Positions 13,669 through 29,047 of a stretch of DNA of 33,443 bases are shown here, in pieces. Both the position numbers and the translations under genes were made by a program. The DNA comes from an uncultured Lachnospiraceae bacterium. GTDB lineage: Bacteria > Bacillota > Clostridia > Lachnospirales > Lachnospiraceae. The notes under the pieces were generated by a model. It ran no database searches, was not told the DNA's origin, and saw only the letters and a program-made list of their open reading frames with translations. Every line of letters starts with the position of its first letter. Positions within the stretch are counted from its first letter, which is position 1. The stretch spans positions 1 to 33,443 of the forward strand of contig CADBZI010000021.1 in NCBI GenBank assembly GCA_902799015.1, written 5' to 3'.

Positions 13669-13683
13669 ATTCGCAATGGATGA

Positions 13684-13816: not shown

Positions 13817-15013
13817 ATGAAAGTACTTGTAGTAAACTGCGGAAGCTCCTCCCTGAAGTATCAGGTGATTGATTCCGATACCGAGCAGATCGAGGCGAAG
13901 GGGCTGTGCGAGCGCATCGGCCTTGACGGACGTCTGGTTTATCAGCCGACCGGCGGCGAGAAGGAGATTACGGAAGCACCGATGCCGACGCACTCCGAGG
14001 CAATCCAGATGGTGCTTGACGCGCTGGTCAATCCAAAGACCGGTGTTCTGAAGAGCCTGGATGAAGTGGAAGCAATCGGACACAGAGTCCTGCATGGCGG
14101 CGCGAAGCTGACAGAATCCGCTCTGGTGAATGACGAAGTCATCGCGGCCATCGAGGAGGCCTCCGACCTCGGCCCGCTGCACAACCCGGCAAACCTGATG
14201 GGCATTCATGCCTGCATGAAGCTGATGCCCGGAAAACCGAATGTTGTCGTCATGGATACCTCCTTCGGCATGACGCTTCCGGCAAAGGCATATCGGTACG
14301 CGATCCCGACCGAGTACTATGAGAAGTATCATATTCGCCGCTACGGCTTCCACGGAACCTCCCACAGCTTTGTCTCAAAGGAGACCATCAAGTATTTGAA
14401 TCTGGATCCGGACAACTCGAAGGTGATCGTAGCCCATCTCGGAAACGGCGCCAGTATCACTGCCGTGAAGAACAGCAAGTGTGTGGATACCTCCATGGGC
14501 GTTACCCCGTTGGAAGGTCTGATTATGGGAACCCGCTCAGGCGACCTGGATCCGGCGATCATCGATTATCTGTGCAGCCATGAGAACCTGACCGCGGCAG
14601 ACATGAACACCATTCTGAATAAGAAGAGCGGTGTTATGGCACTGTCCAATAATCTGAGCTCTGACTTCCGTGATCTGGAGGAAGCGATGGACAACGGCAA
14701 TGAAGCAGCCGGCCTTGCGATCGACGCTTTCTCGTATCGTGTCGCGAAATACATCGGTTCCTACACAGCTGCCATGAACGGCGTGGACGCGATTGCATTT
14801 ACGGGTGGAATCGGTGAGAATGCAGGAATTGTCCGCAAGAAGGTTCTGGAGTATCTCGGATTCCTTGGAATCACCATGGATGAGGAAGCCAACAAGAAGA
14901 GGGGAGAAGCATTCGTGCTGTCCACTCCGGATTCCAAGGTGAAGGTTATCGTGATGCCGACCAATGAAGAGCTGGCGATCTGCCGTGAGACTGTGCGTCT
15001 GACGAAGGGCTGA
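13817..15013 (+). CDS. ackA: Acetate kinase
   Basis: The 398-residue protein makes acetate and ATP from acetyl phosphate and ADP, the energy-yielding partner of Pta. It has the N-terminal phosphate loop VVNCGSSSLKYQ, GHRVLHGGAKLTES, MDTSFGMTLP, the conserved RRYGFHGTSHSFVS, the nucleotide-binding HLGNGASITAVKN, GLIMGTRSGDLDP and the C-terminal FTGGIGENAGIVR. Full family length, with AAAAGGAG before the ATG. The gene lies 148 bases after pta and probably shares its transcript, although a hairpin lies between them. All residues I would look for in the active site (Asn, Arg, Asp and His motifs) appear present. Confidence 0.97.
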   Translation: MKVLVVNCGSSSLKYQVIDSDTEQIEAKGLCERIGLDGRLVYQPTGGEKEITEAPMPTHSEAIQMVLDALVNPKTGVLKSLDEVEAIGHRVLHGGAKLTESALVNDEVIAAIEEASDLGPLHNPANLMGIHACMKLMPGKPNVVVMDTSFGMTLPAKAYRYAIPTEYYEKYHIRRYGFHGTSHSFVSKETIKYLNLDPDNSKVIVAHLGNGASITAVKNSKCVDTSMGVTPLEGLIMGTRSGDLDPAIIDYLCSHENLTAADMNTILNKKSGVMALSNNLSSDFRDLEEAMDNGNEAAGLAIDAFSYRVAKYIGSYTAAMNGVDAIAFTGGIGENAGIVRKKVLEYLGFLGITMDEEANKKRGEAFVLSTPDSKVKVIVMPTNEELAICRETVRLTKG

Positions 15014-15034
15014 GATAGAAAGGGTGTTGGGAAT

Positions 15035-15493
15035 ATGGGTAAGCCGGGAACAAAATGGAAACTGATCTTCAGCATTGTCATGGATGTGGTCCTGTCTGTG
15101 GTCCTGTCGATCTCCGGAACATTGCTGGCACATCAGAAACTTGTTTTCTTTCCGAACCTTGTGAGCAGTATCGCGCTGTGCTTTGTAATTGCTTTTCTTG
15201 TCAGCACGATTATCCCGATCCCGAAGGTTTCAGTAGGATTTGCAGGGCTTTTGCACATCAAGCCGCATACGATGGCGGAAAAGCTGGTGGGAAATATTCC
15301 GGTCAGCCTGCTCTTTACTGTGATTGCAGGCGGCGCGCTTACATTCTTCAATCTGTATATGGCAAAGCATGTGGAACTGTTTCCGCGTGTGTTTCTGGGA
15401 TCGTTCCTTTCGATGTTTGCGATCGTGTTTGTCGTGACATTCTGCATGACCCCCATTGCCGCAGCTGTTGCAAACAGAGCCTGCAGGAGATAG
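15035..15493 (+). CDS. Four-helix membrane protein of unknown function
   Basis: I do not recognise a characterised family. The 152-residue protein has four hydrophobic helices at about residues 10-32, 42-62, 88-110 and 119-141, with basic ends (KPGTKWK, RACRR). Pairs of helices are linked by a polar loop containing HIKPHTMAEK, which gives it the look of a two-fold repeat, as in DUF2798-type small membrane proteins. It starts 21 bases after ackA, with AGAAAGGG nearby, so it is probably cotranscribed with acetate kinase. A role in acetate export or pH homeostasis would be only a guess from context. Confidence 0.7.
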   Translation: MGKPGTKWKLIFSIVMDVVLSVVLSISGTLLAHQKLVFFPNLVSSIALCFVIAFLVSTIIPIPKVSVGFAGLLHIKPHTMAEKLVGNIPVSLLFTVIAGGALTFFNLYMAKHVELFPRVFLGSFLSMFAIVFVVTFCMTPIAAAVANRACRR

Positions 15494-15538
15494 GAAACAG
15501 ACTTGAATCTGTCTTTTGCTCAGATACATGAGCGAATA

Positions 15539-15575
15539 AAAAACTGCCGCATCCAAACCGGGTGCGGCAGTTTTT
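15539..15575. terminator. Bidirectional intrinsic terminator
   Basis: Bases 15539-15554 (AAAAACTGCCGCATCC) pair with 15560-15575 (GGGTGCGGCAGTTTTT) with one T-G pair, and both sides have A/T tracts, so it works in either direction. A smaller hairpin (ACAGA at 15497-15501 with TCTGT at 15508-15512, then CTTTT) precedes it, just after the membrane protein gene. Confidence 0.92.
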
Positions 15576-15659
15576 ACGTGAGCTGGCCGACGCGGATGCG
15601 ATCGGAACCATCTACACCATCGAACGGCAACTCTTCTCCGAAGAACATCGGTCTGACCA
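15575..15659 (-). pseudogene. Possible 3' remnant of an unidentified minus-strand gene
   Basis: On the minus strand a frame reads [18 protein letters not shown], then [10 protein letters not shown] and a TAA stop at 15575-15577, immediately before the bidirectional terminator. The amino acid composition looks protein-like and the position of the stop relative to the terminator is what a gene end would show. The frame has a stop a few codons upstream, so only about 30 codons survive. I do not recognise the protein. This is weak evidence; it may be chance. Confidence 0.25.
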
Positions 15660-15878
15660 TGTACAGATTCAGGCTTCAGGGCTTCCTGTTTTTCAAGGTA
15701 ATTGCTACAATGAGTGTGCCGTTTGAGATTCTGATGCTGCCACTGTATCAGGAAATCACAACTCTGAAGCTGATTAATACTAGACTGGAACAATATGCTG
15801 TGGCCGATTCTGCTGATCTACCTGATCTTTCAGAAGTATCTGATCGACGGTATGACGGCCGGAGCGGTGAAGGGCTGA
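15659..15878 (+). pseudogene. Remnant of a MalG-type sugar ABC permease gene
   Basis: Two fragments of a carbohydrate permease of the MalG class lie next to each other in different frames. From 15668 to about 15781 one frame reads [18 protein letters not shown] followed by [11 protein letters not shown], which matches the mid-protein 'ATM-xPxE-xLxPLY-LGLINT' region of the family. From 15795 to the TGA at 15876 another frame reads [22 protein letters not shown], the typical MalG C-terminus. The first ~110 residues and the ~110 between the fragments, including the EAA loop, are missing. The gene is thus doubly deleted and cannot work. It sits directly upstream of the arabinofuranosidase, where an arabino-oligosaccharide importer is often found. 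Confidence 0.72.
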
Positions 15879-15901
15879 GGAAAATGCCCGGGGAGGAAAT
15901 C

Positions 15902-17449
15902 ATGGCGAATTATTACATCAATGCAGCGAACAAAAAGAGCAGGATTCATAAGGAGATCTATGGACATTTCTCTGAGCACCTGGGCCGCTGCATCTATGAA
16001 GGAATCTATGTGGGGGAAAACTCGGAGATTCCGAATGTCAATGGCATGCGCAGTGATGTCGTGGAGGCTCTGAAGGAGATCCGGGTACCGGTTCTGCGCT
16101 GGCCGGGCGGATGCTTCGCGGATGAGTATCACTGGAAGGATGGAATCGGACCGAAGGAAAACCGCAAAAAGATGATCAATACCCACTGGGGCGGCGTAGT
16201 GGAGGACAACAGCTTCGGAACCCACGAGTTCATGGAGTTCTGCCGTCAGCTTGGCTGCGAGACCTACGTAAACGGAAATGTGGGAAGCGGCACCGTGCAG
16301 GAGATGTCGGAATGGGTGGAATACATGACCTTTAACGGTGTTTCCCCGATGGCGGATCTTCGCGCAAAGAACGGACATCCTGAACCCTGGAAGGTTGATT
16401 TCTTCGGAGTGGGAAATGAAAACTGGGGCTGCGGCGGCAATATGACGCCGGAGTATTACGGGAATCTGTATCGCAGATATCAGACCTACGTGCGCCAGTA
16501 CAACAGTGACATGATGGCGGCTGCCGACGATCAGGGATTTGATGAGGAGAAAAAGATCCGCAAGATTGCCTGCGGCGCGAATGTGGATGACACAGAGTGG
16601 ACCGAGGGCGTGATGAAGACCCTGTTCCGCCACTGCGATCCGAGATTCCACGGGAACGCGGACGGCCTGTCGCTTCATTATTACACACATCCTGAGGGAT
16701 GGGATATCAAGGGCAGTGCCACGGAGTTTGACGAGAAGACCTGGTACAAGACGCTTGCGAAGACCTGGTACATGGAGGACCTGATCAATATGCACGGCGC
16801 CATCATGGATCAGTATGATCCCCAGAAGAAGCTTGGCATGATCGTGGATGAGTGGGGAACCTGGTTCACGGTGGAGCCGGGAACCAATCCGGGCTTTTTG
16901 TATCAGCAGAATACGATGCGCGACGCACTGGTGGCCTGCATCAATCTGAACATCTTCAATAAGCATTCCGACCGTGTAAAGATGGCATGCATCGCCCAGA
17001 TGGTGAACGTGCTGCAGTCGGTTCTTCTGACGGAAGGGGCGAAGATGGTCAAGACGCCTACCTGGCATGTCTTCAATCTGTTTAAGGAGCATCAGGACGC
17101 GGATCTTGTGGAGAGCTTCATCGAGACAACAAAGATCGGTGAGGAAGCGGAGTACATGGTTCCCAATCTGTCCGAATCCGCATCGGTGGACGCGAAGGGA
17201 CGGCTGCATGTGACAATCGGCAACCTGTCTGTGACGCAGGCCGAGAACATTGATGCGCATATCACCGGGATGGAAGGAAAGCGTGTGAAGGCTGAGATCC
17301 TGACCAATGAGATGCACGCGAAGAATACGTTTGACGCGCCGGATACCGTACATAGCACCACGCATGATGTGAAGCTGACCGCTGACGGCTTTGGCTGTGT
17401 CCTTCCGCCCTGCAGCGTGGTCCATATCACGGTGGAATCATCGGACTGA
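15902..17449 (+). CDS. abfA: GH51 alpha-L-arabinofuranosidase
   Basis: The 515-residue enzyme removes terminal L-arabinose from arabino-oligosaccharides. The barrel domain shows the family order: [24 protein letters not shown] at the start, [15 protein letters not shown], acid/base Glu173 in [20 protein letters not shown] and nucleophile Glu317 in [10 protein letters not shown], then a beta-sandwich C-terminal domain. There is no signal peptide, so it acts in the cytoplasm. The frame is open far upstream, but GGGGAGGAA (15889-15897) and homology fix the start at 15902; the upstream frame is permease debris. A terminator at 17491-17521 follows. Products would feed ribulokinase after isomerisation, although no araA is in the window. 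Confidence 0.93.
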
Positions 17450-17490
17450 GAATCCAAAGCGGGTTCGAATACGCATAGATGTCGTGCTGA

Positions 17491-17521
17491 GCGGGAGGAC
17501 AGAAAACTGTCCTCCTGCTTT
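17491..17521 (+). terminator. Terminator after the arabinofuranosidase gene
   Basis: GCGGGAGGACAG (17491-17502) pairs with CTGTCCTCCTGC (17507-17518) with one G-T pair around an AAAA loop, followed by a short TTT. Confidence 0.75.
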
Positions 17522-17573
17522 CCTGAACGGGTTGTTCCCGGGGATCGGCATGGCTTTTGATGGAGGTGAGAGG

Positions 17574-17939
17574 ATGCAGCGCCCAGACCAGCCCAGACGT
17601 TATTGCAAAAAGTGCCTGACCCCTCAGACCGGGGAGGCGTTTTTTCAGCGGCTGCGGGAAATCATAGCCGGTTTTGACGAAGAAGAAAAAGTCCCGCGGG
17701 AAGTTTATGAAAAACGTCTGGATGCATGCATGTCCTGCGACCGTCTTCTGGCCGGGATGTGCCGCATCTGCGGCTGCTATGTGGAACTGAGGGCATCCTT
17801 GAAGCGAAATGCCTGTCCCGCGGTTCATCCGAAGTGGGAGGTGTTCCCGGAGGAGAATATGGAGGGCTTTTTTTCGGCTGCTGCCGCAATCCAAAAGCGG
17901 ATCATTGCGGCTGATATATTGAATAATGAAATAAATTAA
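17574..17939 (+). CDS. DUF6171-type Cys-rich small protein
   Basis: The 121-residue protein has Cys pairs CKKC near residue 11, CMSC near 53, CRIC and CGC near 63-68, and a final Cys in NACPAVHPKWEVFP. The pattern suggests one or two zinc or iron-sulfur sites and matches the Lachnospiraceae family I know as DUF6171; its function is unknown. The longer frame upstream runs through the terminator and is rejected: GGAGGTGAG (17562-17570) fixes the ATG at 17574. It precedes the selenium-type gene group by 111 bases but has a promoter-like sequence between, so it is probably transcribed separately. A metal- or sulfur-related role would fit its neighbours but is not shown. Confidence 0.7.
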   Translation: MQRPDQPRRYCKKCLTPQTGEAFFQRLREIIAGFDEEEKVPREVYEKRLDACMSCDRLLAGMCRICGCYVELRASLKRNACPAVHPKWEVFPEENMEGFFSAAAAIQKRIIAADILNNEIN

Positions 17940-18050: not shown

Positions 18051-19088
18051 ATGAGTGAGGAGAAGATTACTTTCTGCAAGGGCGGAGGGTGCACGGCAAA
18101 GCTTGGAGCACAGGCTCTGAACCGGGTGCTCAGCCTTCTTCCGAAGGGAGAAAGGGACCCGGATCTTCTGGTCGGCTATTCCAGCAGAGATGACGCGGCT
18201 GTATACAGACTGACAGACGACATTGCGTTTGTCCAGACGCTGGATTTCTTTCCGCCGATGGTTTCCGATCCTTATACCTTCGGGCAGATTGCCGCGGCAA
18301 ATGCGCTGAGTGACATCTACGCGATGGGCGGCGAAGTGAAAACAGCACTGAATATTGTCTGCTTCCCTGAAAAGTGGGATCTCAACATACTCGGCGAGAT
18401 CCTGCGCGGCGGGTCTGAGAAGGTCATCGAGGCCGGCGCCAGCCTTGCCGGCGGTCACTCCATTGCAGATGCGGATGTCAAGTATGGGCTGTCGGTCACC
18501 GGAATTGTCCATCCGGATCATATCTGGCAGAACAATACCGGCATTCCCGGGGATAAGCTGATCCTCACAAAAGCGCTCGGTGTCGGAATTCTGTGCACGG
18601 CCGACCGGGTTTCGGAGGCTCCTCTGGAGGGCATGAAGGCAGCAATTCGTTCCATGACAACGCTGAACAAAGAAGCTGCTCTGTGCTGCAGGAACTACGG
18701 GATTCATGCCTGCACGGATGTCACTGGATTCAGCTTCCTCGGACATCTTCATGAGATGATGGATGACGGAAGACTGTCGTGCAAGGTCTATTCTGATCAG
18801 ATCCCGGTGCTTCCCGGCGCGGCGGAGTGTGCGGATGAATTCCTTTTGACGGCAGCCGCGCAGAGAAACCGCAATCATGTGGGAAGCTTCGTCCGGTTTG
18901 AGGGAATTCCTTTCGCGATGGAGGAGGTGCTCTTTGACCCGCAGACGTCCGGTGGCCTGCTTGTGGCGGTGGGAGAAAAAGAGGCACAGGGCCTGTTGGC
19001 GGATCTGCGCGCAAAAGGCCTTCCCGCAGCAATTGTGGGGGAGATCTGCGAGAAAGAAGAATCAGGTGCGGAGATTACCGTAAGCTGA
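18051..19088 (+). CDS. selD: Selenide, water dikinase (Cys form)
   Basis: The 345-residue enzyme makes selenophosphate, the active selenium donor, from selenide and ATP. The N-terminal catalytic motif is [10 protein letters not shown] with Cys14 in the position of the essential Cys/Sec (Cys17 in E. coli) and Lys17 as the partner Lys. Further motifs are [47 protein letters not shown] and the C-terminal DPQTSGGLL. The catalytic codon is TGC, so the enzyme itself is not a selenoprotein. A GTGAGG site lies 12 bases before the ATG. No selA or selB is nearby; the following genes suggest the selenophosphate is used for a cofactor or a labile selenium centre. Confidence 0.95.
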
Positions 19089-19133
19089 ACAAAGAATGAT
19101 ACAGGAAAAACAGAGTGAGGAGGATTCAGAGGA

Positions 19134-19760
19134 ATGATTCAGGTCAATGCACTGGGCGATGCCTGCCCGATTCCGGTGGTAAAGACAAAGAACGCAATCA
19201 AAGAACTGCATGGAGCGGGAATCGTGGAAACGCTGGTAGACAATGAGATCGCCGTTCAGAATCTGACGAAGATGGCGAACCAGAAGGGATACGGCGTAAA
19301 GTCGGAGAAACTGTCCGAGGATCAGTTCCGTGTAACGATGGAGATCAAGGAGGGATCTGTGTCTGCCGGGGAGGAGTCCGCGCAGGAGACACAGGAATGT
19401 CTGGTAGTGCCGGAAGGTCATAAAAAGAATGTGGTGGTTGCGGTCACGGCTTCTGTGATGGGAACCGGAAATGACGAACTCGGCGCGGTATTGATCAAGG
19501 GCTTCCTCTATGCACTGACGCAGCAGGATGAATTGCCGAAAACGATTCTGTTCTACAATGGCGGTGCGCAGCTGACCTGTGAAGGCTCCGCGTCCCTTGA
19601 GGACCTGAAGAGTCTGGAAGCACTTGGTGTCGAGATTCTGACCTGCGGTACCTGCCTGAACTATTACAAGCTGAGCGAGAAGCTTGCGGTGGGCGGTGTC
19701 ACCAACATGTATGAGATCACCGAACGCCTGACAAAAGCCGATCTGGTAGTACGCCCGTAA
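19134..19760 (+). CDS. yedF: YedF-type sulfurtransferase-like selenium metabolism protein
   Basis: The 208-residue protein is a fusion of a TusA-like domain (residues 1-75, with the catalytic-type motif GDACPIPVVKTK and Cys10) and a DsrE-like domain (about 98-208, with VAVTASVMGTGNDELG, LPKTILFYNGGAQL and Cys residues in ILTCGTCLNYY). TusA domains relay persulfide, and this fusion is known as a marker of selenium-use genes. It starts 45 bases after selD with GTGAGGAGG upstream and is the second gene of the operon. It likely carries S or Se from the class V aminotransferase to an acceptor. The family assignment is firm, the carrier role is inference. Confidence 0.9.
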   Translation: MIQVNALGDACPIPVVKTKNAIKELHGAGIVETLVDNEIAVQNLTKMANQKGYGVKSEKLSEDQFRVTMEIKEGSVSAGEESAQETQECLVVPEGHKKNVVVAVTASVMGTGNDELGAVLIKGFLYALTQQDELPKTILFYNGGAQLTCEGSASLEDLKSLEALGVEILTCGTCLNYYKLSEKLAVGGVTNMYEITERLTKADLVVRP

Positions 19761-19774
19761 GCAGGGAAAAGCAT

Positions 19775-20017
19775 ATGCGTCAGAGTAAGGAATTTCTGGT
19801 CATCACATTCTCCCAGACGACGGATGCGATGGCAGCGGAGCTGCTGTTTCGGGATCTTTGTGTTCCGGGTCGGATCATTCCCATCCCGCGCCAGCTGAGT
19901 GCGGGGTGCGGTCTTGCATTCCGGACCGAGATGGATCAGAAGCAGCAGGCGCAGCAGGCACTTGTAGAAGCCGGGATCCGCTGGCATGAGATGGAACCGG
20001 TCCGCCTTCTGGTTTGA
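19775..20017 (+). CDS. DUF3343 putative Se/S carrier-like protein (first copy)
   Basis: The 80-residue protein belongs to the DUF3343 family, proposed as a selenium/sulfur carrier. It has the typical opening LVITFSQTTDAMAAE, a GRIIPIPRQLSAGCGLAF segment with the conserved Cys of the family, and an amphipathic C-terminus. It starts 14 bases after yedF, in the same operon. The fold is ferredoxin-like in the family. A second DUF3343 gene closes the operon at 23531, and the two differ clearly in sequence. The Cys is probably where a persulfide or selenopersulfide would form, but this is a family-level proposal. Confidence 0.85.
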   Translation: MRQSKEFLVITFSQTTDAMAAELLFRDLCVPGRIIPIPRQLSAGCGLAFRTEMDQKQQAQQALVEAGIRWHEMEPVRLLV

Positions 20018-20108
20018 GAAGCGGCAGACTTGCGTTTGCGGCTGAGCCATTGGAAGCAGGATTCTCCAAAACCGGACCGGAAGCAGAATAAAAAAGATGG
20101 AATGACTT

Positions 20109-20888
20109 ATGAGTATCTCCTACTACGCCGGAATTGATATCGGATCGACGTGCTCCAAGACAGTGGTAATGGACGGAAGCGGCAAGATTCTGCATCGCCT
20201 GCTGCGGCCGACCGGTTGGAGCAGCGTGGATACAGCGGATGCGGTGCTGAAAGAGCTGGACGGCTTCGGGATTGCACAGGATGAACGGAAAGTGGTGTCC
20301 ACCGGGTACGGAAGAGCTTCTGTATCCTATGCCGACAAACAGGTGACCGAGATTACGTGTCACGCAAGAGGCGCCTGCCATATCTATGGGACGGATAACC
20401 TGACGGTCATAGACATCGGCGGGCAGGATACGAAACTGATTGTCGTACAGAACGGCCAGGTTACGGACTTTCTGATGAATGACAAATGCTCTGCCGGTAC
20501 CGGCAGGTTCCTTGAGGTCATGGCGAACACCCTCTCGGTGCGTCTCGAGGAGCTGTGCGAGCTGGCCAGAATGGGCGGAGGCGTTTCCATCAGCTCCATG
20601 TGCACGGTATTCGCCGAGTCTGAAGTGATCGGACTGATCGGCAAAGGAGAAAAACGGGAGAATATAGCCTACGCTGTCGTGAATTCGATCGTGCAGAAGG
20701 TGGCATCCCAGGCGGGGCGTCTGAAGCTGGATCAGACAGTCTGCCTGACCGGCGGACTGTGTGAATTCGAATATCTGAGGAAGCGGCTGGGAGAGGTACT
20801 TCGGTGTGAAGTAATCGCCTGCCCGGACGGACGTTATGCCGGAGCGGCCGGAGCGGCGCTGAGTGCGCTGAGATTGGGAGAATCATGA
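20109..20888 (+). CDS. Acyl-CoA dehydratase activase family ATPase (HgdC/BadF type)
   Basis: The 259-residue protein is an ASKHA-fold ATPase that uses ATP hydrolysis to push one low-potential electron into a dehydratase- or reductase-type partner. It shows GIDIGSTCSKTVVMD at the start, VIDIGGQDTK in the middle, and Cys127 in NDKCSAGTGRFLE and Cys165 in SSMCTVFAESEVIGL; these two Cys from each subunit bind a single [4Fe-4S] cluster at the dimer interface in known relatives. The C-terminal CLTGGLCEF and YAGAAGAAL complete the fold. Its stop overlaps the start of the next gene by four bases. The partner is most likely the double-cubane protein at 22234. Confidence 0.93.
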   Translation: MSISYYAGIDIGSTCSKTVVMDGSGKILHRLLRPTGWSSVDTADAVLKELDGFGIAQDERKVVSTGYGRASVSYADKQVTEITCHARGACHIYGTDNLTVIDIGGQDTKLIVVQNGQVTDFLMNDKCSAGTGRFLEVMANTLSVRLEELCELARMGGGVSISSMCTVFAESEVIGLIGKGEKRENIAYAVVNSIVQKVASQAGRLKLDQTVCLTGGLCEFEYLRKRLGEVLRCEVIACPDGRYAGAAGAALSALRLGES

Positions 20889-22024
20889 TCTATCTTGACA
20901 ACGCGGCGACAACGATGCACAAACCGCAGACGGTGATTGACGCCGTTGTCCATGCGATGACATCCATGGGAAATGCTTCCCGCGGCGCGCATACAGGTGC
21001 GCTGGAGGCATCCAGAACAATCTATGAGACAAGACGCAAGATCGCGAAGCTCTTCGGCTGCAAAAGGCCGGATCACGTGGTCTTTACCTGCAACTCAACA
21101 GAGGCGCTGAACATTGCCATACAGGGTGCGATTCCGGCAAAGAGCCATGTCATTACAACGGACCTGGAACACAATTCCGTGCTCCGTCCCCTCTACAGAC
21201 TGAAAGAGGAATCAGGGGTCTGCCTTGACTTTGCCCGTGCCGACCGGCAGGGAAGGCTGGATCTTCAGGAGCTGGAAGGGCTGATCCGGCCTGACACAAA
21301 GGCGATTGTCTGTACGCATATGTCCAACCTGACGGGTGAGATCGTGGATATTGCGCGGATCGGACGTATGACAAAGGACAGAGGCATCCTGCTTTGTGTT
21401 GACGCCTCCCAGAGCGCGGGGAATACGCCGATTGATATGGAGCAGATGGGGATCGATATTCTCTGCTTCACCGGACATAAGGGACTGATGGGACCGCAGG
21501 GAACCGGAGGGATGTGTATCCGGGAAGGAGTGGAGATCCATCCGCTCAAGGAAGGAGGATCCGGTGTCCAGTCTTACCGGCACCGCCAGCCGGTGGAATA
21601 TCCGACCAGGCTGGAAGCGGGGACGCTGAACGGACACGGACTGGCAGGACTGTCCGCCGCATTGGACTATATCCTTGAGACGGGTGTGGAGACCATCGGC
21701 CGGAAAGAGCGGATGCTGGCAGAGCATTTCTATGAAGGCGTCTCTCAGATCGAAGGCGTTAAGGTATACGGGTGCTTTGAGGATAAGAACAGAGGACCGG
21801 TGGTTGCACTCAATGTCCGGGAGTATGATTCCAGCGAGGTGTCGGACGTTCTGAGTGTGGACTATGACATCGCGACCCGCCCGGGGGCGCACTGCGCACC
21901 CAGGATGCATGAGGCGCTGGGCACAGTGGATCAGGGTGCGGTGCGGTTCAGCTTCTCCTGGTTCAATACCGTGGAGGAGACAGATCAGGCAATCGAAGCG
22001 GTCCGGAAGATCGCGCTCGCTTAG
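20885..22024 (+). CDS. Class V aminotransferase, cysteine desulfurase/selenocysteine lyase-like (EF2568 type)
   Basis: The 379-residue PLP enzyme would take sulfur from cysteine or selenium from selenocysteine. Motifs: YLDNAATTMHKP at the start, TCNSTEALN, CVDASQSAGNTP, the PLP-binding Lys199 in FTGHKGLMGPQGTGG and the catalytic-type Cys337 in GAHCAPRMHEALG. It matches the subgroup typified by Enterococcus EF2568 that accompanies orphan selD genes. It overlaps the activase gene by four bases (ATGA), so the two are translationally coupled even though their biochemistry differs. Next comes a 209-base gap with a hairpin. IscS-type housekeeping function is unlikely because no iscU is adjacent. 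Confidence 0.92.
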   Translation: MIYLDNAATTMHKPQTVIDAVVHAMTSMGNASRGAHTGALEASRTIYETRRKIAKLFGCKRPDHVVFTCNSTEALNIAIQGAIPAKSHVITTDLEHNSVLRPLYRLKEESGVCLDFARADRQGRLDLQELEGLIRPDTKAIVCTHMSNLTGEIVDIARIGRMTKDRGILLCVDASQSAGNTPIDMEQMGIDILCFTGHKGLMGPQGTGGMCIREGVEIHPLKEGGSGVQSYRHRQPVEYPTRLEAGTLNGHGLAGLSAALDYILETGVETIGRKERMLAEHFYEGVSQIEGVKVYGCFEDKNRGPVVALNVREYDSSEVSDVLSVDYDIATRPGAHCAPRMHEALGTVDQGAVRFSFSWFNTVEETDQAIEAVRKIALA

Positions 22025-22105
22025 AGACGGTGCCGCATGGAGCGTCACGTTCGCTTAGAAATTGCGCTCCCTTAGGGATGGAACGCGTTTCTTGAGAGAA
22101 AGGAC

Positions 22106-22136
22106 CAGGGAAACACAGAAAAGCAGCGTTTCCCTG
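22106..22136 (+). other. Intercistronic hairpin in the selenium-type operon
   Basis: CAGGGAAAC (22106-22114) pairs perfectly with GTTTCCCTG (22128-22136) around a 13-base loop; a second small hairpin (GGCC TTCT GGCC, 22152-22163) follows. No T-tract is present. The 209-base gap contains no recognised gene; the hairpins may separate expression of the reductase gene from the upstream genes by RNA processing. Confidence 0.5.
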
Positions 22137-22233
22137 TATTTGCCCGAAGGCCTTCTGGCCGGAGGCGCGAAGAGAAAAGCAGTACAGCAATCGTAACCGG
22201 TGTAGCATGTGTAAAAAGTGGGAGGTAACAGGT

Positions 22234-23505
22234 ATGGCTGACTACAGACAGATGTGGAGCGATCTCGGGATGGATATGGAGAACCATGACAATCTCTGTC
22301 AGGTGCTTCCGACTGCTGTCGGAGATGTGTTCCTGTCGCAGGAGAATCGTCCAAAAGCGATGGATTTCTGGGATCTGGTGATTTCCGAGGTTCACGGGAT
22401 CCGTCCTGCGGAGCTGATTGAAGAGCAGAAGAAAGGCAGAAAGGTATTCGGAACCTTCTGTGTGTATGTACCGGATGAGGTGATCATCGCGGCAAATGGA
22501 ATTGTGACCGGCCTGTGCGGCGGATCCCAGTTCTGGGTACCGGATGGAGAGAAGGTTCTGCCCAAGAGCACATGTCCCCTCGTAAAGGCTTCTGTCGGCG
22601 CAAGACTCGGACGCACATGTCCTTTCTTCCGCATTGCGGATATGTATGTCGGAGAGACAACCTGTGACGGAAAGAAGAAAGCATACGAGATTCTCGGAGA
22701 GGATGTCCCGATGTATATCATGGATGTTCCTCAGATGAAGCGTGAGAAGGATATCCTGAAGTGGAAAGACGAGATCGCGGAATTCGCAAAGAAGGTCGAG
22801 GAGTTCACCGGGAATACCATCACACCGGAAAAGCTTGGCGAGGCGATACACCTGATCAACGAAAAGAGGAAAGCACTGCAGAGAGTCTATGATTGCCGCA
22901 AGTCAAAGACTCTGCCGATCTCAGGTCGCGATGCTCTGCTGATGACCCAGATCTCCTTCTTTGATGATCCGGCCCGCTGCGCGCAGATGTGCAACCGTCT
23001 TGCGGACGAGCTGGAGCAGAGAATCAAGGACGGCGTCAGTGTAGTAAGTGCCGGAACCAAGCGGATCATGGTAACCGGAACGCCACTGGCGGTTCCGAAC
23101 TGGAAGCTGCACAATATCATCGAGACCAGCGGCGCGGCTGTTGTCTGTGAAGAGATGTGCACCGGAACCAGATACTTTGAGAATCTGGTTGATGAGTCTC
23201 AGACGACTCTGGACGGTCAGTTCATGGCACTGTCCGAGCGCTACATGAAGACGAACTGTGCCTGCTTCACCCCGAATACGGGACGCATCGATGACCTGCT
23301 TCGCCTGGCGAAGGAATATCAGGTAGACGGAGTGATTGACTGCAGCCTGAAGTTCTGCTGCCTGTATGATACGGAGAAGTATTCTGTCTCCCGTGCGCTG
23401 AAGGAAGCAGGCATCCCGGTTCTTTCTCTTGAGACTGACTATGAGGATGCAGATGCCGGCCAGCTCCGCACCAGAATCGGCGCATTTATCGAGATGCTTT
23501 CCTGA
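22234..23505 (+). CDS. Double-cubane-cluster reductase, 2-hydroxyacyl-CoA dehydratase family (HgdB/YjiM-like)
   Basis: The 423-residue protein belongs to the 2-hydroxyacyl-CoA dehydratase fold. It is rich in Cys that can hold iron-sulfur clusters: FCVYVPDE, LCGGSQF, STCPLVK, RTCPFFR, TTCDGKK, VCEEMCTGTRYF, NCACFTPNTGR and DCSLKFCCLYD. The single-polypeptide form beside an activase is typical of double-cubane cluster proteins, which carry out ATP-dependent low-potential reductions of small molecules; the physiological substrate of the family is unknown. GGAGG (22221-22225) fixes the ATG at 22234 instead of one nine codons upstream. The only other dehydratase-type subunit one might expect (HgdA) is absent. 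Confidence 0.9.
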   Translation: MADYRQMWSDLGMDMENHDNLCQVLPTAVGDVFLSQENRPKAMDFWDLVISEVHGIRPAELIEEQKKGRKVFGTFCVYVPDEVIIAANGIVTGLCGGSQFWVPDGEKVLPKSTCPLVKASVGARLGRTCPFFRIADMYVGETTCDGKKKAYEILGEDVPMYIMDVPQMKREKDILKWKDEIAEFAKKVEEFTGNTITPEKLGEAIHLINEKRKALQRVYDCRKSKTLPISGRDALLMTQISFFDDPARCAQMCNRLADELEQRIKDGVSVVSAGTKRIMVTGTPLAVPNWKLHNIIETSGAAVVCEEMCTGTRYFENLVDESQTTLDGQFMALSERYMKTNCACFTPNTGRIDDLLRLAKEYQVDGVIDCSLKFCCLYDTEKYSVSRALKEAGIPVLSLETDYEDADAGQLRTRIGAFIEMLS

Positions 23506-23530
23506 CATATTTCAGTAAACCAATGAATCC

Positions 23531-23794
23531 ATGAATCTCAGATACTATATTTTATTTGCGAATTATGAGCAGGGACTTGCCCTGAGGGATATTCTCCTTC
23601 AGGACGGGATCCCGAACCGGATTGCGCCGGCTCCCAGAGCCATCCAGGGAGATCTTTCCTGCGGCATGAGCCTTCTGGTGGAACCGGAATATATTGAGCA
23701 GGCCAGGCGTTCCATCGAGGAACACCATGCAGCCTATCACCGGATTGCCTCTCTGGAGGGACAGATCCGGCCAAACAGAGATCGATATTGCTGA
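23531..23794 (+). CDS. DUF3343 putative Se/S carrier-like protein (second copy)
   Basis: This 87-residue protein is a second DUF3343 member, with the pattern YYILFANYEQGLALRDILLQ, PAPRAIQGDLSCGMSLLV (family Cys at about residue 44) and an amphipathic C-terminal helix. It follows the reductase gene by 25 bases and ends at the operon terminator. No Shine-Dalgarno sequence is visible before the ATG and an in-frame stop lies close upstream, so the start is fixed but translation may depend on coupling to the upstream gene. It differs strongly from the first copy (19775-20017), suggesting different partners. Confidence 0.85.
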   Translation: MNLRYYILFANYEQGLALRDILLQDGIPNRIAPAPRAIQGDLSCGMSLLVEPEYIEQARRSIEEHHAAYHRIASLEGQIRPNRDRYC

Positions 23795-24073: not shown

Positions 24074-24946
24074 ATGCTTGATCAGAAGAACAGCAGCACC
24101 GGCTGCGAATTCTATTTTGAACAGGACAAGGTCCGGCTTCATATGAAGCTGGATCTGCCGGAAGGACTGCGGCTGAACAACAGCCCGGATGACGCGGCCG
24201 GCGGGCGGCCATTCCTTCCGGAGGTTATGGCGGAGGGGGACGGCGCTTTGCTTCCCTGTCCCCTCGTGATTGTCCAGCACGGGTTTAGCGGGCACATGGA
24301 GGAAGACCATATCATTGCGGTATCGAAAGCATTGAATGAGACAGGCTTTGCGACCCTTCGGACAGAGCTGTACGGACATGGGAAAAGCGACGGCAATTTC
24401 GAGGATCATACCTTATATAAATGGCTGACGGAAATGCTGGATATCATCGATTATGTGAGAGGGTTTGAATTTGCGCGTGACCTGTTCCTGTGCGGCCATT
24501 CTCAGGGAGGACTTTGTGTCATGCTGGCAGGGGCGATGAAGCGGGATGTGGTGCGCGGATTGATCCCGCTGTCTCCGGCGGTGATGATCCCTGATGATGC
24601 CAGGAAAGGCGTCATGCTGGGACACTCCTTCGACCCGGATCGGATCCCGGATGTTCTGACCCTGGAGGACGGCCTGAAGCTGGGGGGGAACCATGCAAGG
24701 GTATCCCAGACGATTTATGTCGAACCGGCGATCGACGCTTTTTCCAAAGAAGTGCTGATCATCCACGGTATGGAAGATGAATGTGTTCCGTTTGCCTGTG
24801 CCAGGGAAGCGGCGCAGCGATATCGGAATGCGACGCTGATCGCAATTCCCGGGGATGATCATTGCTACAACCATCATCTGGATCAGGTGACGGATGCTTT
24901 GAAGAAGTACATGCAGCAATTTGTCCCGGAAAAGAGGACAGACTGA
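24074..24946 (+). CDS. Alpha/beta hydrolase, cinnamoyl/feruloyl esterase-like
   Basis: The 290-residue protein has an alpha/beta hydrolase fold with a complete triad: Ser143 in GHSQGG, Asp235 in HGMEDECVP and His263 in GDDHCYNHH. The oxyanion region VQHGFSGHMEEDH and the RTELYGHGKSDG loop resemble intracellular cinnamoyl esterases of gut bacteria (Lactobacillus LJ0536-like), which free ferulic acid from plant xylan. No signal peptide is seen. GGAGGGG precedes the ATG. The next gene encodes GH120 beta-xylosidase, 64 bases away, supporting a role in trimming substituted xylo-oligosaccharides. A general acyl esterase cannot be excluded. Confidence 0.8.
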   Translation: MLDQKNSSTGCEFYFEQDKVRLHMKLDLPEGLRLNNSPDDAAGGRPFLPEVMAEGDGALLPCPLVIVQHGFSGHMEEDHIIAVSKALNETGFATLRTELYGHGKSDGNFEDHTLYKWLTEMLDIIDYVRGFEFARDLFLCGHSQGGLCVMLAGAMKRDVVRGLIPLSPAVMIPDDARKGVMLGHSFDPDRIPDVLTLEDGLKLGGNHARVSQTIYVEPAIDAFSKEVLIIHGMEDECVPFACAREAAQRYRNATLIAIPGDDHCYNHHLDQVTDALKKYMQQFVPEKRTD

Positions 24947-25010
24947 ATGCGGAACGGCAAAGGTTCCGGACTGTTTGGGCCGCGATGAGGACGGCGGAAT
25001 GGAGATGACT

Positions 25011-27014
25011 ATGAGATGGTATGTTGACCAAAGCGCTGCGTTTCAGGGAGACGGATCGAAAGAGAGACCTTTTACCAGAATTCAGGATGCGGCGAACTGC
25101 GCCGGACCGGGGGATGAAGTCCTGGTCGCGCCCGGTATCTACAGAGAATATGTGAATCCGGTACATGCCGGCACTCCTCAGGCAAGGATTACCTACCGGA
25201 GCATGGAAAAGAACGCCGCGGTGATTACCGGTGCCGAGGAGCTGAAGAACTGGGAGAAAGACGGAGCGCTCTGGAAGACGTCCGTGGAGAACAGCATCTT
25301 CGGCACCTACAATCCGTATACGACCTATGTGTACGGGGACTGGTATTTCGCGGGAAAGACAAAGCATACCGGCGCGGTTTTCCTGAATGACCGGATGCTG
25401 TATGAAGCCGCGTCGGTGGAAGCGTGCCGGAAGGCGGAACGAAGCACGGTATCCTGGGTTCCGGATGAGTCCGTATACCAGTGGTATGCGGAGCAGACGC
25501 CGGACGGCGGGAAGACGGTCTTCTGGTGTAATTTCCAGGAGAAGGATCCGAACCGGGAGAAGGTGGAATTCACGGTGCGCCGGGAGTGCTTCATGCCTTC
25601 GAAGACGGGCGTCGGATATATCACGGTATCCGGATTCAAGGTGGACAAAGCAGCCCCGACCTGGGCGCCTCCGGCGGCTTTCCAGGATTGCATGATCGGC
25701 CCGCACTGGGCAAAGGGCTGGGTGATCGAGGACTGCGAGATCAGCAATTCCAAATGCTCCGGCATCGGTCTGGGAAAGTACCTGGATCCTGAGAACGATC
25801 ATTATTTTACGACGAAGCATGTGAAGAGCCCGACGCAGATGGAGCGCGATGCTGTGTGCAGGGGACAGTATCATGGCTGGCTGAAGGAAACGGTGGGCAG
25901 CCATATCGTGCGCAGATGCAACATCCACCACTGTGAGCAGGGCGGTATTATCGGACGCATGGGCGGCGTTTTCAGCCTGATTGAGGACAACCATATCCAT
26001 CACATCAATAATATGATGGAGCTGGGCGGGGCTGAGATCGCCGGAATCAAGATGCATGCCGCGATTGACGTTGTGATGCGGCGCAACCACATCCATCACT
26101 GCACCATGGGCATCTGGTGTGACTGGGAAGCGCAGGGAACGCGCATCACGGGCAACCTGCTGCACGACAATATGAGGCCGGACTTTGCGAAGCAGCTGAC
26201 CGGCGGCATGACCTGTCAGGATATCTTCGTGGAGGTGAGCCACGGGCCAACGCTGATTGACAATAATATCCTTCTGTCGGATGTGTCGCTTCGGTTTGCG
26301 ACCCAGGGCGTCGCAATGGTACACAACCTGATCTGCGGTGCATTTACCTATGTCGGGGAAGGGACACAGCAAAGATATACCCCGTACCATATTCCGCACA
26401 GAACGGAAGTCATGGGCTTTATGACCTTCCTGCACGGTGATAACCGGTTCTACAACAATATCTTTATCCAGAAATGGCCGGACAGAGATTTTGTTGTGCG
26501 CAGTGACAGCCGGGAAGAGATGGAGATCGAAAATCGAAAGACCGGTACGATGGTCTGGGATTCCTACCCGACGTATGACGCGTGGATCAGCCAGTTTGAT
26601 CTGGATACCGATACGCCGGATATGGCGAAGCTCGAACCGGCCCATATGGGACATCTTCCGGTATGGTCGGAGGGTAATCTGTACTTCAATGGCGCAAAGG
26701 CATATCGCGCGGAGAAAAACGGAGTGGTCGACACGAAGCATCCCGTTTGTGTCAGCGCAGCGGAAACGGACGGGGGCTGGACGCTGCAGACAGATCTGTA
26801 TGAATTCCTGAAGGAAGAAGAAGGTCTTGCCTGCCGGATGATTCATTCAGACATACTGGGGAAAGCATTCGAGCCGGAGGAGCGTTTTGAGAATCCGGAT
26901 GGATCCGCCATTACATTCGACACGGACTACTTCGGAAAGCACAGGGGCGTTGACGTGATTCCCGGGCCGTTTGCGGAGCCGTTTACATCCGCTTTTGTGA
27001 CGCGCGCACAGTGA
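25011..27014 (+). CDS. GH120 beta-xylosidase
   Basis: The 667-residue protein is a right-handed parallel beta-helix glycosidase of family GH120, which removes xylose from xylo-oligosaccharides. It shows family segments such as FGTYNPYTTYVYGDWYF, APTWAPPAAFQDCMIGPHW, GGAEIAGIKMHAAIDVVMR, and the two catalytic positions Asp371 in CDWEAQGTR and Glu408 in FVEVSHGP, equivalent to the reported nucleophile Asp382 and acid/base Glu405 of Thermoanaerobacterium XylC. Several Met codons lie near the start; 25011 (GGAG six bases upstream) makes the N-terminus agree with the family, with 24999 as alternative. No signal peptide, so it is intracellular. It is likely cotranscribed with the esterase. Confidence 0.9.
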   Translation: MRWYVDQSAAFQGDGSKERPFTRIQDAANCAGPGDEVLVAPGIYREYVNPVHAGTPQARITYRSMEKNAAVITGAEELKNWEKDGALWKTSVENSIFGTYNPYTTYVYGDWYFAGKTKHTGAVFLNDRMLYEAASVEACRKAERSTVSWVPDESVYQWYAEQTPDGGKTVFWCNFQEKDPNREKVEFTVRRECFMPSKTGVGYITVSGFKVDKAAPTWAPPAAFQDCMIGPHWAKGWVIEDCEISNSKCSGIGLGKYLDPENDHYFTTKHVKSPTQMERDAVCRGQYHGWLKETVGSHIVRRCNIHHCEQGGIIGRMGGVFSLIEDNHIHHINNMMELGGAEIAGIKMHAAIDVVMRRNHIHHCTMGIWCDWEAQGTRITGNLLHDNMRPDFAKQLTGGMTCQDIFVEVSHGPTLIDNNILLSDVSLRFATQGVAMVHNLICGAFTYVGEGTQQRYTPYHIPHRTEVMGFMTFLHGDNRFYNNIFIQKWPDRDFVVRSDSREEMEIENRKTGTMVWDSYPTYDAWISQFDLDTDTPDMAKLEPAHMGHLPVWSEGNLYFNGAKAYRAEKNGVVDTKHPVCVSAAETDGGWTLQTDLYEFLKEEEGLACRMIHSDILGKAFEPEERFENPDGSAITFDTDYFGKHRGVDVIPGPFAEPFTSAFVTRAQ

Positions 27015-27045
27015 CGCGGAAGAAGGGATTCTGCGTGAAAAAACA

Positions 27046-27076
27046 TCTTGACAGGAGTTTTCTGCCTTATTATAAT
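27046..27076 (+). promoter_or_regulatory. Promoter of the DUF177-rpmF unit
   Basis: A perfect TTGACA (27046-27051) precedes TATAAT (27071-27076, 19-base spacer) overlapped by TATTAT (27068-27073, 16-base spacer). It lies 32 bases upstream of the DUF177 start and marks the return to housekeeping genes. Confidence 0.8.
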
Positions 27077-27107
27077 TACGGAGTGCGCTTTGAAGGGGTA
27101 CCATTTT

Positions 27108-27668
27108 ATGTTGCTGAATCTGACAGATGTGCTTCTGGAAGGCAGGAAGGTCGAAACAGAAGTGCCAATCGGACTTGAGAAGCTGGAATACAGCTTCGGG
27201 AGCTACCCGGTCACGGAAAAAAGCTCTGCTTTTCTGATCTTGAATAAGAAGGAGAGCGGACATCTGGAGATACGGGGGAAGGCTTCGATGAAGGTGCAGA
27301 TTCCCTGCGACAGATGCCTGGACAGCGTAATCGTTCCGTTCGAGCTGGATTTTTGCGAGACTGTCGCAGTCAGTGAGGCGGAAGGTCCGGAAGTAGATTC
27401 GGAAGGATCTGAGGCGGAGATGGCGGATGAGCCGGTACTCGATCCGGACTGTTTGATAGAAGGATATCACCTGGACGTGGATAAGCTGCTCTTTGGTGAA
27501 GCTCTGCTGAACTGGCCGTCCCGTGTTCTCTGCAAGGAGGACTGCAAGGGACTGTGTCCGGTATGCGGTCAGAACTTAAACCATGGTGATTGCGGCTGCG
27601 AACGCAAGGCGCTTGATCCAAGAATGGCGAAGGTCCTGGATGTTTTCAGCAAGTTCAAGGAGGTGTAG
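27108..27668 (+). CDS. DUF177/YceD family protein (rRNA accumulation factor)
   Basis: The 186-residue protein matches DUF177 (YceD), which in E. coli is linked to 23S rRNA accumulation and usually sits before rpmF, as here. It has the PCDRCLD motif in the middle (about residues 65-75) and a C-terminal Cys cluster CKGLCPVCGQNLNHGDCGC, typical of the family and probably metal-binding. An acidic stretch (EAEGPEVDSEGSEAE) lies between. The ATG at 27108 is chosen because AAGGGG precedes it (27093-27098) and it lies just after the promoter; an ATG at 27048 lies inside the -35 box. The rpmF gene follows after 3 bases. Confidence 0.88.
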   Translation: MLLNLTDVLLEGRKVETEVPIGLEKLEYSFGSYPVTEKSSAFLILNKKESGHLEIRGKASMKVQIPCDRCLDSVIVPFELDFCETVAVSEAEGPEVDSEGSEAEMADEPVLDPDCLIEGYHLDVDKLLFGEALLNWPSRVLCKEDCKGLCPVCGQNLNHGDCGCERKALDPRMAKVLDVFSKFKEV

Positions 27669-27671
27669 ACC

Positions 27672-27860
27672 ATGTCGATTTGCCCGAAGAATAAGCACAG
27701 CAAGTCAAGAAGAGATATGAAGCACGCGCAGTGGAAGATGGCGGCTCCGACTCTCGTAAAGTGCAGCAAGTGCGGCGCTCTCATGAGACCGCATACCGTC
27801 TGCAAGGCTTGCGGAAGCTACAACAAGAGGGAGATCATCAAGGTTGGCGAAGACGCCTGA
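27672..27860 (+). CDS. rpmF: 50S ribosomal protein L32
   Basis: The 62-residue protein is ribosomal protein L32 in its zinc-binding form, with CSKCG and CKACG supplying four Cys ligands, and the typical basic N-terminus ICPKNKHSKSRRDMKHAQW. The AAGGAGGTG ribosome binding site overlaps the end of the DUF177 gene. Length is normal. A strong hairpin terminator follows at 27885-27921, so the DUF177-rpmF pair is likely one unit with its own promoter, and plsX starts a new one. Confidence 0.97.
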   Translation: MSICPKNKHSKSRRDMKHAQWKMAAPTLVKCSKCGALMRPHTVCKACGSYNKREIIKVGEDA

Positions 27861-27884
27861 GCGTGATCTTTTGGAGGAAACCAG

Positions 27885-27921
27885 GAAGGGAGTGCCTGAG
27901 TGGGGCAGTCCCTTCTTTCTT
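27885..27921 (+). terminator. Terminator after rpmF
   Basis: GAAGGGA and TGCC (27885-27896) pair with GGCA and TCCCTTC (27904-27915) with one G-G mismatch and a seven-base loop, followed by TTTCTT. An extended -10-like TGATATAGT (27935-27943) just downstream may start plsX transcription. Confidence 0.75.
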
Positions 27922-28017
27922 GCGTTTTCACACCTGATATAGTACACTTTTGTGAGCCGGAAATACCGTAGAAACGAAAAGCAAAAAAACACAGGTGCCG
28001 GGATGGAGGTTAGGAAA

Positions 28018-29037
28018 ATGGCGGATCGGATCACAATCGCGGCGGACGCGATGGGAGGAGACAACGCCCCGGAAGAGATCGTGAAGGGGGTTGTTGCTGC
28101 TGTCAACAGCATGAGCAATGTCTCGGTGATACTGGTGGGCAGAGAGAACGAAATCGCAGCCTGCCTGAAGCAACAGACCTATCCGGAAGGCTCGATCCGG
28201 ATCCTGCCTGCGCAGGATGTCATTGCGACCGCGGATCATCCCGTAGAGGCAATCCGGCGCAAAAAAGAATCTTCCATGGTAAAAGCACTGCAGCTGGTGA
28301 AGAACGGGGAAGCGGATGCATTTATCTCTGCCGGGAACTCCGGCGCAGTCGTTGTGGGCGGACAGGGAATCATCGGCAGACTCCGCGGGGTACAGAGGCC
28401 TCCGTTCGCGTCCATCATTCCCACCAGGAAAGGCGGGATGCTTCTGCTGGACTGCGGGGCCAATGTGGATGCCAGACCCGAGCATCTGGCCCAGTGGGCG
28501 AAGCTTGGAACGATCTATCTGCAGAGCGTTCTCGGGGTGGAGGATCCAAAGGTCGGGATTGTGAATATCGGAGCGGAGGAAGAAAAGGGCAACAGCCTGG
28601 TGAAGGAAACCTTCCCGCTGCTCAAAGAGATGGGAGAAAAGGGAGAGATCCATTTTACCGGGAGCTGCGAGGCGAGGGATATCCCCTATGGCAGCTGCGA
28701 TGTTGCCGTGTGTGATGGCTTCACGGGGAATGTGATCATCAAGATGTATGAAGGAACCGGGACACTGCTTCTCGGAGAGATGAAGAATGCGTTCTATACC
28801 TCCCTGACGAGCAAGATCGGGGCACTCCTGGTAAAGGGCGTCTTAAAGAAAACACTTGGAAAATATGATGCCAGCCAGTATGGCGGCGCACCTGTTCTGG
28901 GGTTGAAGAGCTTAGTGGTGAAGATGCACGGAAGCGCGAAAGCCACGGAGGTGAAGCGCGCAATCGAACAGTGTGTACAGTTCTACAAGGAAGACATTGC
29001 GGCGAAGATTGCAGCTTATATTGAAGCACATAATTAA
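28018..29037 (+). CDS. plsX: Phosphate acyltransferase PlsX
   Basis: The 339-residue protein makes acyl-phosphate from acyl-ACP and starts phospholipid synthesis. It has [20 protein letters not shown] at the start, [42 protein letters not shown] and the C-terminal [25 protein letters not shown] (28005-28009) points to the ATG at 28018; upstream Mets would add 22 or fewer residues not seen in the family. It starts a lipid/RNA processing unit with acpP and rnc, ten bases before acpP. The enzyme is membrane-associated but has no membrane helix. Confidence 0.96.
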
Positions 29038-29047
29038 GGAGGAAAAC

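Follow-up and report, generated by a model that had tools for sequence, protein, structure and literature searches.

The 33,443-nt contig CADBZI010000021.1 of an uncultured Lachnospiraceae bacterium (hereafter, the window) contains, at positions 18051-23794, a run of seven genes predicted to encode, in order, selenophosphate synthase (SelD), YedF, a DUF3343 protein (DUF3343 a), an activase, an EF2568-type class V enzyme, a double-cubane-cluster protein (DCCP) and a second DUF3343 protein (DUF3343 b). It is proposed, at somewhat less than even odds (a probability of about 0.45), that this run is a selenium-supply operon, in which DCCP, driven by ATP, would provide SelD with selenide by reducing selenium that is either elemental or bound to a carrier. 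Sequence places SelD, YedF and the class V enzyme in the known orphan-SelD set, with DCCP, the activase and DUF3343 b making up a second unit. The near-strict nesting of DCCP within selD-containing genomes in samples from two phyla, together with the presence of its own DUF3343 partner, opens the function of DCCP to a direct selenium test, with Escherichia coli K-12 as model. If true, the proposal would account for the production of free selenide by anaerobes in a potential range in which ferredoxin and thiols donate electrons poorly, and would bring further genes into the selenium traits known from gut bacteria.

The distribution of DCCP relative to selD was considered in two sets of genomes for which at least 90% completeness was requested, namely, 147 genomes of the same class as the window (Clostridia) and 196 genomes of Coriobacteriia (Actinomycetota), the class of genome G160. 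Among the Clostridia, DCCP was detected over its cut-off in 16 genomes, selD in 37 and YedF over its cut-off in 36. All 16 DCCP-encoding genomes, spread over 14 genera and eight families, also contained selD and YedF (hypergeometric p = 1.3e-11 for selD, with genomes being treated as independent), while four other genomes of the same family as the window contained neither selD nor an over-cut-off DCCP. Among the Coriobacteriia, DCCP was found over its cut-off in 85 genomes and selD in 147, with both being found in 84 (p = 1.3e-13, again assuming independence). When 50 hosts of window-type DCCP, drawn from the best 80 of 586 candidate loci and picked mainly by DNA length, were next addressed, selD was found in every one (two of these, G160 and G175, also belong to the Coriobacteriia sample). 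Likewise, DCCP matches were seen in E. coli and M. jannaschii in a set of 14 control genomes, these being exactly the two with selD. As a further control, genomes containing only sub-cut-off HGD-D relatives were considered, and selD was found in 10 of 30 (Fisher p = 6e-6); on this basis, the idea of DCCP as a bystander was rejected. The original prediction had tied the reductase pair to selenium genes, and such cross-genome linkage was indeed encountered in the samples from both phyla and in E. coli. DCCP-like genes scoring just below the cut-off (306-314 bits) were noted in two further genomes, G363 and G379, with no selD match, along with an HGD-D-like neighbor and an activase (L198 7260-8708; L199 8698 onward). 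These perhaps represent a non-selenium sister family.

The type of selenium use in DCCP-containing genomes was also considered. selA was found in 36 of the 50 hosts (35 over the cut-off) and yqeB in 26, such that 21 contained selA only, 15 contained both, 11 contained yqeB only and three contained neither. Among the 37 Clostridia genomes with selD, DCCP was present in 6 of 15 with selA only, 4 of 9 with yqeB only, 6 of 11 with both and neither of the two lacking both. Because DCCP is found with both uses of selenium and is almost absent when selD is missing, it most simply acts before selenophosphate. As such, the earlier suggestion that the reductase makes or uses a selenium species fits best in its 'before selenophosphate synthesis' form, whereas a role limited to the labile selenium cofactor was rejected, given the 21 hosts with selA and no yqeB.

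Examination of the regions surrounding window-type DCCP genes revealed a DUF3343 gene beginning no more than 300 nt past the end of DCCP and similarly oriented in 77 of 79 loci, a count that leaves out L167, where there is no downstream room. At a distance of no more than 6 kb and on the DCCP strand, these 79 loci, many of them on short contigs, contained sequences encoding the activase (59), the class V enzyme (50), YedF (16) and SelD (6). Clustering of neighboring products in 89 loci (the best 80 of 586 candidates, eight others and the window) returned as top clusters the activase (59 loci), DUF3343 (49, plus six in a second cluster), TIGR01977 (48), YedF (10) and SelD (9), as well as an ABC-ATPase-like cluster in 15 of the 89 loci (an unscanned label). 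Smaller clusters, for each of which one member was scanned, included a selenium LysR regulator (NF040786; six loci) and a YedE transporter (TIGR04112; three loci), while other clusters (3-11 loci), antisense frames among them, look unrelated, with the one scanned being a FocA-like transporter (three loci). In 13 of 18 over-cut-off DCCP loci of the Clostridia sample, DUF3343, YedF or SelD was encoded in the surrounding DNA; in one of the loci examined, L038, selD, selA, a selB-like frame (recognized by eye), DCCP, DUF3343 and activase genes are found together. In L034 and L035, the DCCP and activase genes fall in the same run as yqeC, yqeB, yedF and selD, which speaks for the tie to selenium. 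Among DCCP genomes, to which the distance counts are confined, selD lies within 10 kb of DCCP in 38 of 84 Coriobacteriia. Some genomes of that sample encode two different DCCPs in tandem and a single activase beside selD-yedF-DUF3343-class V (L200 8382-11900; L201 6446-9970), and in L197 (G327 C14), the activase gene is on the strand opposite to that of DCCP.

DUF3343 b is, judged from sequence, the partner of DCCP. In an alignment of 40 DUF3343 proteins (39 DCCP-side and one YedF-side), P33, P35, C44 and G45 were invariant. Moreover, the last residue is a cysteine in 67 of 87 DUF3343 proteins encoded after a long-type DCCP, and 55 of the 87 finish with RDx[YF]C; the 87 include at least one artefact, an activase frame in L124, scored as having no cysteine. 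By comparison, a terminal cysteine was found in 3 of 54 other DUF3343 proteins from the same set of loci, two of the three being in L124 and L144, where the place after DCCP is empty, and in 8 of 548 other recurrent frames. The two DUF3343 counts omit L001-L031, L087-L091 and L172-L191, as well as DUF3343 frames at contig ends. At 50% identity, 78 DCCP-side DUF3343 proteins, that of the window included, fell into 24 clusters, 20 of which contain at least one member with a C-terminal cysteine. In DUF3343 b itself, the Pfam match covers residues 4-72 of 87 and does not extend to the tail. The AlphaFold model of the protein presents a ferredoxin-like order of elements (mean pLDDT 85.7, pTM 0.73), with the tail being less certain (mean pLDDT of the last block, 63). 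A Foldseek search with this model returned nothing at E ≤0.001, the best match (2.3e-3) and others with a TM score of about 0.5 being mostly PII- or ACT-type ferredoxin folds, and Pfam scans yielded PF11823 only, with no match to DsrC/TusE. DsrC/TusE proteins are small sulfur carriers with a cysteine on a flexible C-terminal arm that serve a reductase. DUF3343 b resembles these in its C-terminal cysteine arm, a likeness by analogy only, but differs in sequence and in its ferredoxin-like model.

To place the operon within its genome, the remainder of the assembly (G000; 2.6 Mb in 168 contigs, 85% complete), of which the window is contig C21, was considered. yqeB was found on contig C4 (G000 C4:59629-60474; gene at L032 14612-15520; 303.5 bits, cut-off 220), as was yqeC (L032 10086-11213; TIGR03172, 108.1 bits, cut-off 73.05), the product of which bears a YgfJ-like second part scoring below the YgfJ cut-off. 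Purine growth of Clostridioides difficile is described as yqeB-dependent (PMC11448449). The same contig encodes XdhB and XdhC, both over their cut-offs, while xdhA is split over two adjacent frames (L032 15554-17254 and 17238-18080) that, when scored separately, gave 775.4 and 298.6 bits against a cut-off of 780, the gene being either broken or misassembled. Adenine deaminase and a D-hydantoinase/dihydropyrimidinase are also encoded on C4, and further matches to the molybdopterin-binding domain MoCoBD_2 were obtained on contigs C57 and C59. selA (TIGR00474) gave no match in this 85%-complete genome, where selB and SelU/YbbB were not searched for, nor in G186, G187 or G188, the genomes of relatives L092, L093 and L095. 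With SelD, yqeB, yqeC and molybdenum hydroxylase genes present and no selA match, G000 displays the orphan-SelD trait and, within the limits of an incomplete assembly, appears to use selenium in cofactor form. Ordinary selenocysteine use in G000 was rejected on the lack of a selA match. Labile-selenium use, as originally predicted, was thus borne out by genes found elsewhere in the genome. The accompanying remark that no selA, hydroxylase or yqeB/yqeC gene is in view holds within the window but not genome-wide for yqeB, yqeC and xdh, given their presence on C4; for selA, it holds across the assembly.

All seven genes of the run were named by curated models and lie on the forward strand in the order originally described. 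selD (18051..19088; TIGR00476, 387.9 bits, cut-off 125) encodes the cysteine form of the enzyme (KGGGCTAK) and has no in-frame stop. It is followed by yedF (19134..19760; TIGR03527, 211.9 bits, cut-off 110), encoding a TusA domain and a C-terminal part with cysteines in ACPIP and CGTC motifs, and by the gene encoding DUF3343 a (19775..20017; PF11823, 65.1 bits, gathering threshold 25), a putative YedF-side selenium or sulfur carrier with Cys45-Gly46 and no C-terminal cysteine. The activase (20109..20888; TIGR00241, 239.1 bits, cut-off 125.4) is the ATPase expected to drive electrons into DCCP, with Cys127 (KCSAGTG) and Cys165 presumably being cluster ligands, as in HgdC. The class V pyridoxal phosphate enzyme (20885..22024; TIGR01977, 439.2 bits, cut-off 377) is likely a selenocysteine lyase or cysteine desulfurase. 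Its assignment as the curated selenocysteine lyase SclA (NF040779), an enzyme described in a 2026 review as preferring selenocysteine over cysteine (PMC13188914), was rejected, with a score of 352.8 bits against a cut-off of 525. A 182-nt spacer (22025..22206) precedes the DCCP gene (22207..23505; NF040772, 499.1 bits, cut-off 350), which is followed by that of DUF3343 b (23531..23794; PF11823, 53.6 bits, gathering threshold 25). The latter contains Cys44-Gly45 and an RDRYC tail; by counting, the codons for the invariant Cys44 and the C-terminal Cys87 are at 23660..23662 and 23789..23791, respectively, both on the forward strand.

The intergenic gaps are, in gene order, 45, 14, 91, -4, 182 and 25 nt. 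Translational coupling, as earlier claimed for the run, can thus be retained for the activase/class V enzyme junction, the sole one to overlap (by 4 nt), but not for the others, with gaps of 14-182 nt; coupling at several junctions was accordingly dismissed. All seven genes are kept in the same order in the near relatives L092-L095 (uncultured Lachnospiraceae or Clostridiales), so that the order is not a chance assembly. The spacer before DCCP is about 31-32 nt long in L094 and L095, as compared to 182 nt in the window, where three imperfect 15-nt direct repeats are found at 22011-22076, the first beginning inside the class V enzyme gene and the rest falling at the start of the spacer. An Rfam scan of the window gave no matches, and a scan for promoters and terminators yielded two promoter-like sites (shuffle mean, 3.6) and eight terminator-like sites (shuffle mean, 5.3). 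Directly upstream of selD, a DUF6171 (PF19668) protein is encoded at 17391-17939. Sugar-use genes flank the operon (2219-17449 and 24921-33441), including those encoding a pentose-type ABC transporter, ribulokinase, transketolase halves and pta and, recognized by eye only, ackA, an arabinofuranosidase-like frame and then a GH120-like beta-helix enzyme. The end of the window contains plsX, a ribonuclease III gene and smc.

DCCP matches the double-cubane protein of Protein Data Bank (PDB) entry 6ENO over residues 11-431, that is, nearly its full length (482 bits), with cysteine positions being kept. The cysteine columns are invariant in an alignment of DCCP with its relatives, and their role in cluster binding is predicted. 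Position 22234 (MADYRQMW) is a likelier start for the protein than is 22207, since it aligns with 6ENO and the relatives. No second domain was found in 13 DCCP frames longer than 480 residues that were checked for fusions. A plasmid search returned 16 records with DCCP-like proteins (34-36% identity). A short N-terminus of a distinct kind is common to the DCCPs of L042 and L048.

In the proposed pathway, selenium provided by the class V enzyme or from elsewhere would be loaded onto cysteines of YedF and the DUF3343 proteins as S-Se species. The activase, using ATP and a ferredoxin-type donor, would push electrons into the double-cubane cluster; flow of electrons from activase to DCCP is known for solved relatives. 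DUF3343 b would bring zero-valent selenium, carrier-bound or elemental, to DCCP for reduction to selenide, which SelD would convert to selenophosphate. In G000, selenophosphate would then go into the selenium cofactor of enzymes of the xanthine dehydrogenase type, encoded on C4 and predicted to contain selenium. A literature search for the Se(0)/HSe- potential did not yield a value, and the potential at pH 7 was instead estimated from general constants as -0.72 V with 1 M selenide, -0.55 V with 1 micromolar and -0.49 V with 10 nanomolar, as compared to an estimated -0.27 V for the sulfur couple at 1 M. ATP would be needed because the selenium couple, at about -0.5 to -0.7 V, is more negative than that of sulfur and equal to or more negative than ferredoxin. 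Potentials of less than -600 mV were reported to be required for the second and third electrons in the related BzdNO (PMC11971306). A bolder version of the proposal, drawn by analogy and considered unlikely, would make DCCP, the activase and DUF3343 b an ATP-driven reductase dedicated to selenium, with DUF3343 b acting as a two-cysteine swinging arm that holds selenium between Cys44 and Cys87 as a DsrC-like selenotrisulfide and feeds the cluster. Such activity would be the physiological role so far lacking for double-cubane proteins, with E. coli YjiM-YjiL-YtiA being a reduced version.

In E. coli K-12 MG1655, yjiM (DCCP, 531 bits), yjiL (activase) and ytiA (PF11823, 48.9 bits) form one run (L205 8669-10851), at least 80% of which was found in 5323 of 5426 E. 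coli genomes. YjiM, a short-type DCCP, shares 57% identity with the DCCP of L034, encoded inside a yqeB-yedF-selD run, and 35% identity with that of the window. selD is absent from the 20 kb examined around the E. coli genes. yjiM and yjiL are among the many anaerobic genes, hyc and hyb included, that fall in a ygfI mutant (PMC9068703, section 8), an observation that says little of function. yjiM-yjiL-ytiA is a candidate selenium-supply operon in E. coli.

Several observations weigh against the proposed supply role. One Coriobacteriia genome (G327) encodes an over-cut-off DCCP and has no selD match, and DCCP over the cut-off is missing from 21 of the 37 Clostridia genomes with selD, so that DCCP is not required for selenium use. 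The genomes sampled are not independent, making the p values a guide only. selD is found within 6 kb and on the same strand in only those 6 of 79 window-type loci noted above and within 20 kb of DCCP in only 5 of 16 Clostridia genomes; being rarely nearby, selD is tied to DCCP mostly by co-occurrence, together with the DUF3343 and class V neighbors. In the remaining 5 of 18 Clostridia loci (L042, L047, L048, L049 and L053), neither DUF3343, YedF nor SelD is encoded in the surrounding DNA. The C-terminal cysteine is not universal, being present in 67 of 87 cases and absent from E. coli YtiA, and DUF3343 may be a sulfur carrier, since it also occurs in organisms lacking selD (PMC5322559). At 10 nM selenide, the estimated couple of about -0.49 V means that ATP may not be strictly needed. 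Finally, the mechanism is drawn from protein families, gene order, co-occurrence and conserved cysteines.

Other explanations were weighed against the reduction of zero-valent selenium. DCCP could instead reductively cleave organic or methylated selenium, such as methylselenol-type or seleno-amino acid species, so freeing selenide. The same co-occurrence data and upstream position fit this activity; moreover, DCCP is encoded in many type I mlp clusters along with methyltransferase homologs, one of which was reported to be active on selenide (PMC10418091). However, no corrinoid methyltransferase was recognized by eye among the 45 neighbor clusters listed, of which most were unscanned and which mostly exclude clusters found in two or fewer loci. 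On balance, cleavage of organic selenium holds an outside chance.

Alternatively, DCCP may be a general anaerobic small-molecule reductase kept by those anaerobes that possess selenium enzymes. DCCP reduces acetylene, hydrazine and azide (PMC11971306), and the behavior of yjiM and yjiL in the ygfI mutant and the five Clostridia loci with no selenium gene nearby are consistent with such a correlation of lifestyle. Still, selD does not go along with HGD-D relatives in the same sample (10 of 30), the top neighbors of DCCP are selenium genes and the E. coli run keeps a DUF3343 gene, rendering this explanation rather improbable. Equally, the unit could act downstream, maturing or reductively activating the selenium cofactor of molybdenum hydroxylases or selenoenzymes. 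In L034 and L035, a single run comprises yqeC-yqeB-yedF-selD-DCCP-activase and then a MocA/YgfJ-like gene, followed in L035 by xdh-like subunits, with the MocA/YgfJ-like and xdh-like genes scoring under the named cut-offs, and in Coriobacteriia loci L192-L195, the order is DCCP-activase-YedF-DUF3343-class V-YqeB-like. Yet with selA and no yqeB in 21 of the 50 hosts and the reverse in 11, neither use explains all, and a downstream role likewise seems rather improbable. That the double-cubane cluster itself takes up SelD-derived selenium to form an Fe-Se cluster, the other option raised with the original prediction, as the sharing of one gene run by selenium genes and a cluster protein might hint, is very doubtful, given that the solved DCCP is described with an [8Fe-9S] cluster (PMC11971306).

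Zero-valent selenium reduction ahead of SelD, the reading preferred here, can be compared with what has been described. The gene association is already partly in print. DCCP was 'provisionally linked' to selenium in 2023 (PMC10418091), and in 2025, archetypal double-cubane proteins were still described as having no known biological function (PMC11971306). Among the papers listed by literature searches and judged by title and opening of the abstract, with subscription papers such as Haft and Gwadz (2023) lying outside this scope, no further tie between DCCP and selenium and no selenium role for yjiM-yjiL-ytiA was seen. In Slackia heliotrinireducens, Table 1 of Lin et al. (2015; PMC5322559) presents an activase, DUF3343, a selenocysteine lyase family member, YedF, DUF3343 and a '2-hydroxyglutaryl-CoA dehydratase subunit' under consecutive locus tags (Shel_25420-25470), together with SelD (25360), that is, the same gene set as in the window; there, these appear as STRING partners only, with the reductase being neither identified as DCCP nor discussed in that part of the paper. 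The orphan-SelD trait of the Enterococcus faecalis type (Haft and Self, 2008; PMC2276186), for which EF2566-2568 are listed, has in common with G000 SelD, YedF, the EF2568-type enzyme, yqeB, yqeC and an xdh-type hydroxylase, along with the lack of a selA match in G000. It differs in that DCCP, the activase and DUF3343 are not among the genes listed in the account of the trait given there, and in that G000 has yqeB, yqeC and xdh on a contig other than that of the run. The E. coli trio, like the window, combines DCCP, activase and DUF3343 in one run, yet differs in its short-type DCCP and in the lack of a terminal cysteine in YtiA. Finally, the double-cubane protein of Carboxydothermus hydrogenoformans (PDB entries 6ENO and 7YYL) resembles the DCCP of the window in having an activase partner.

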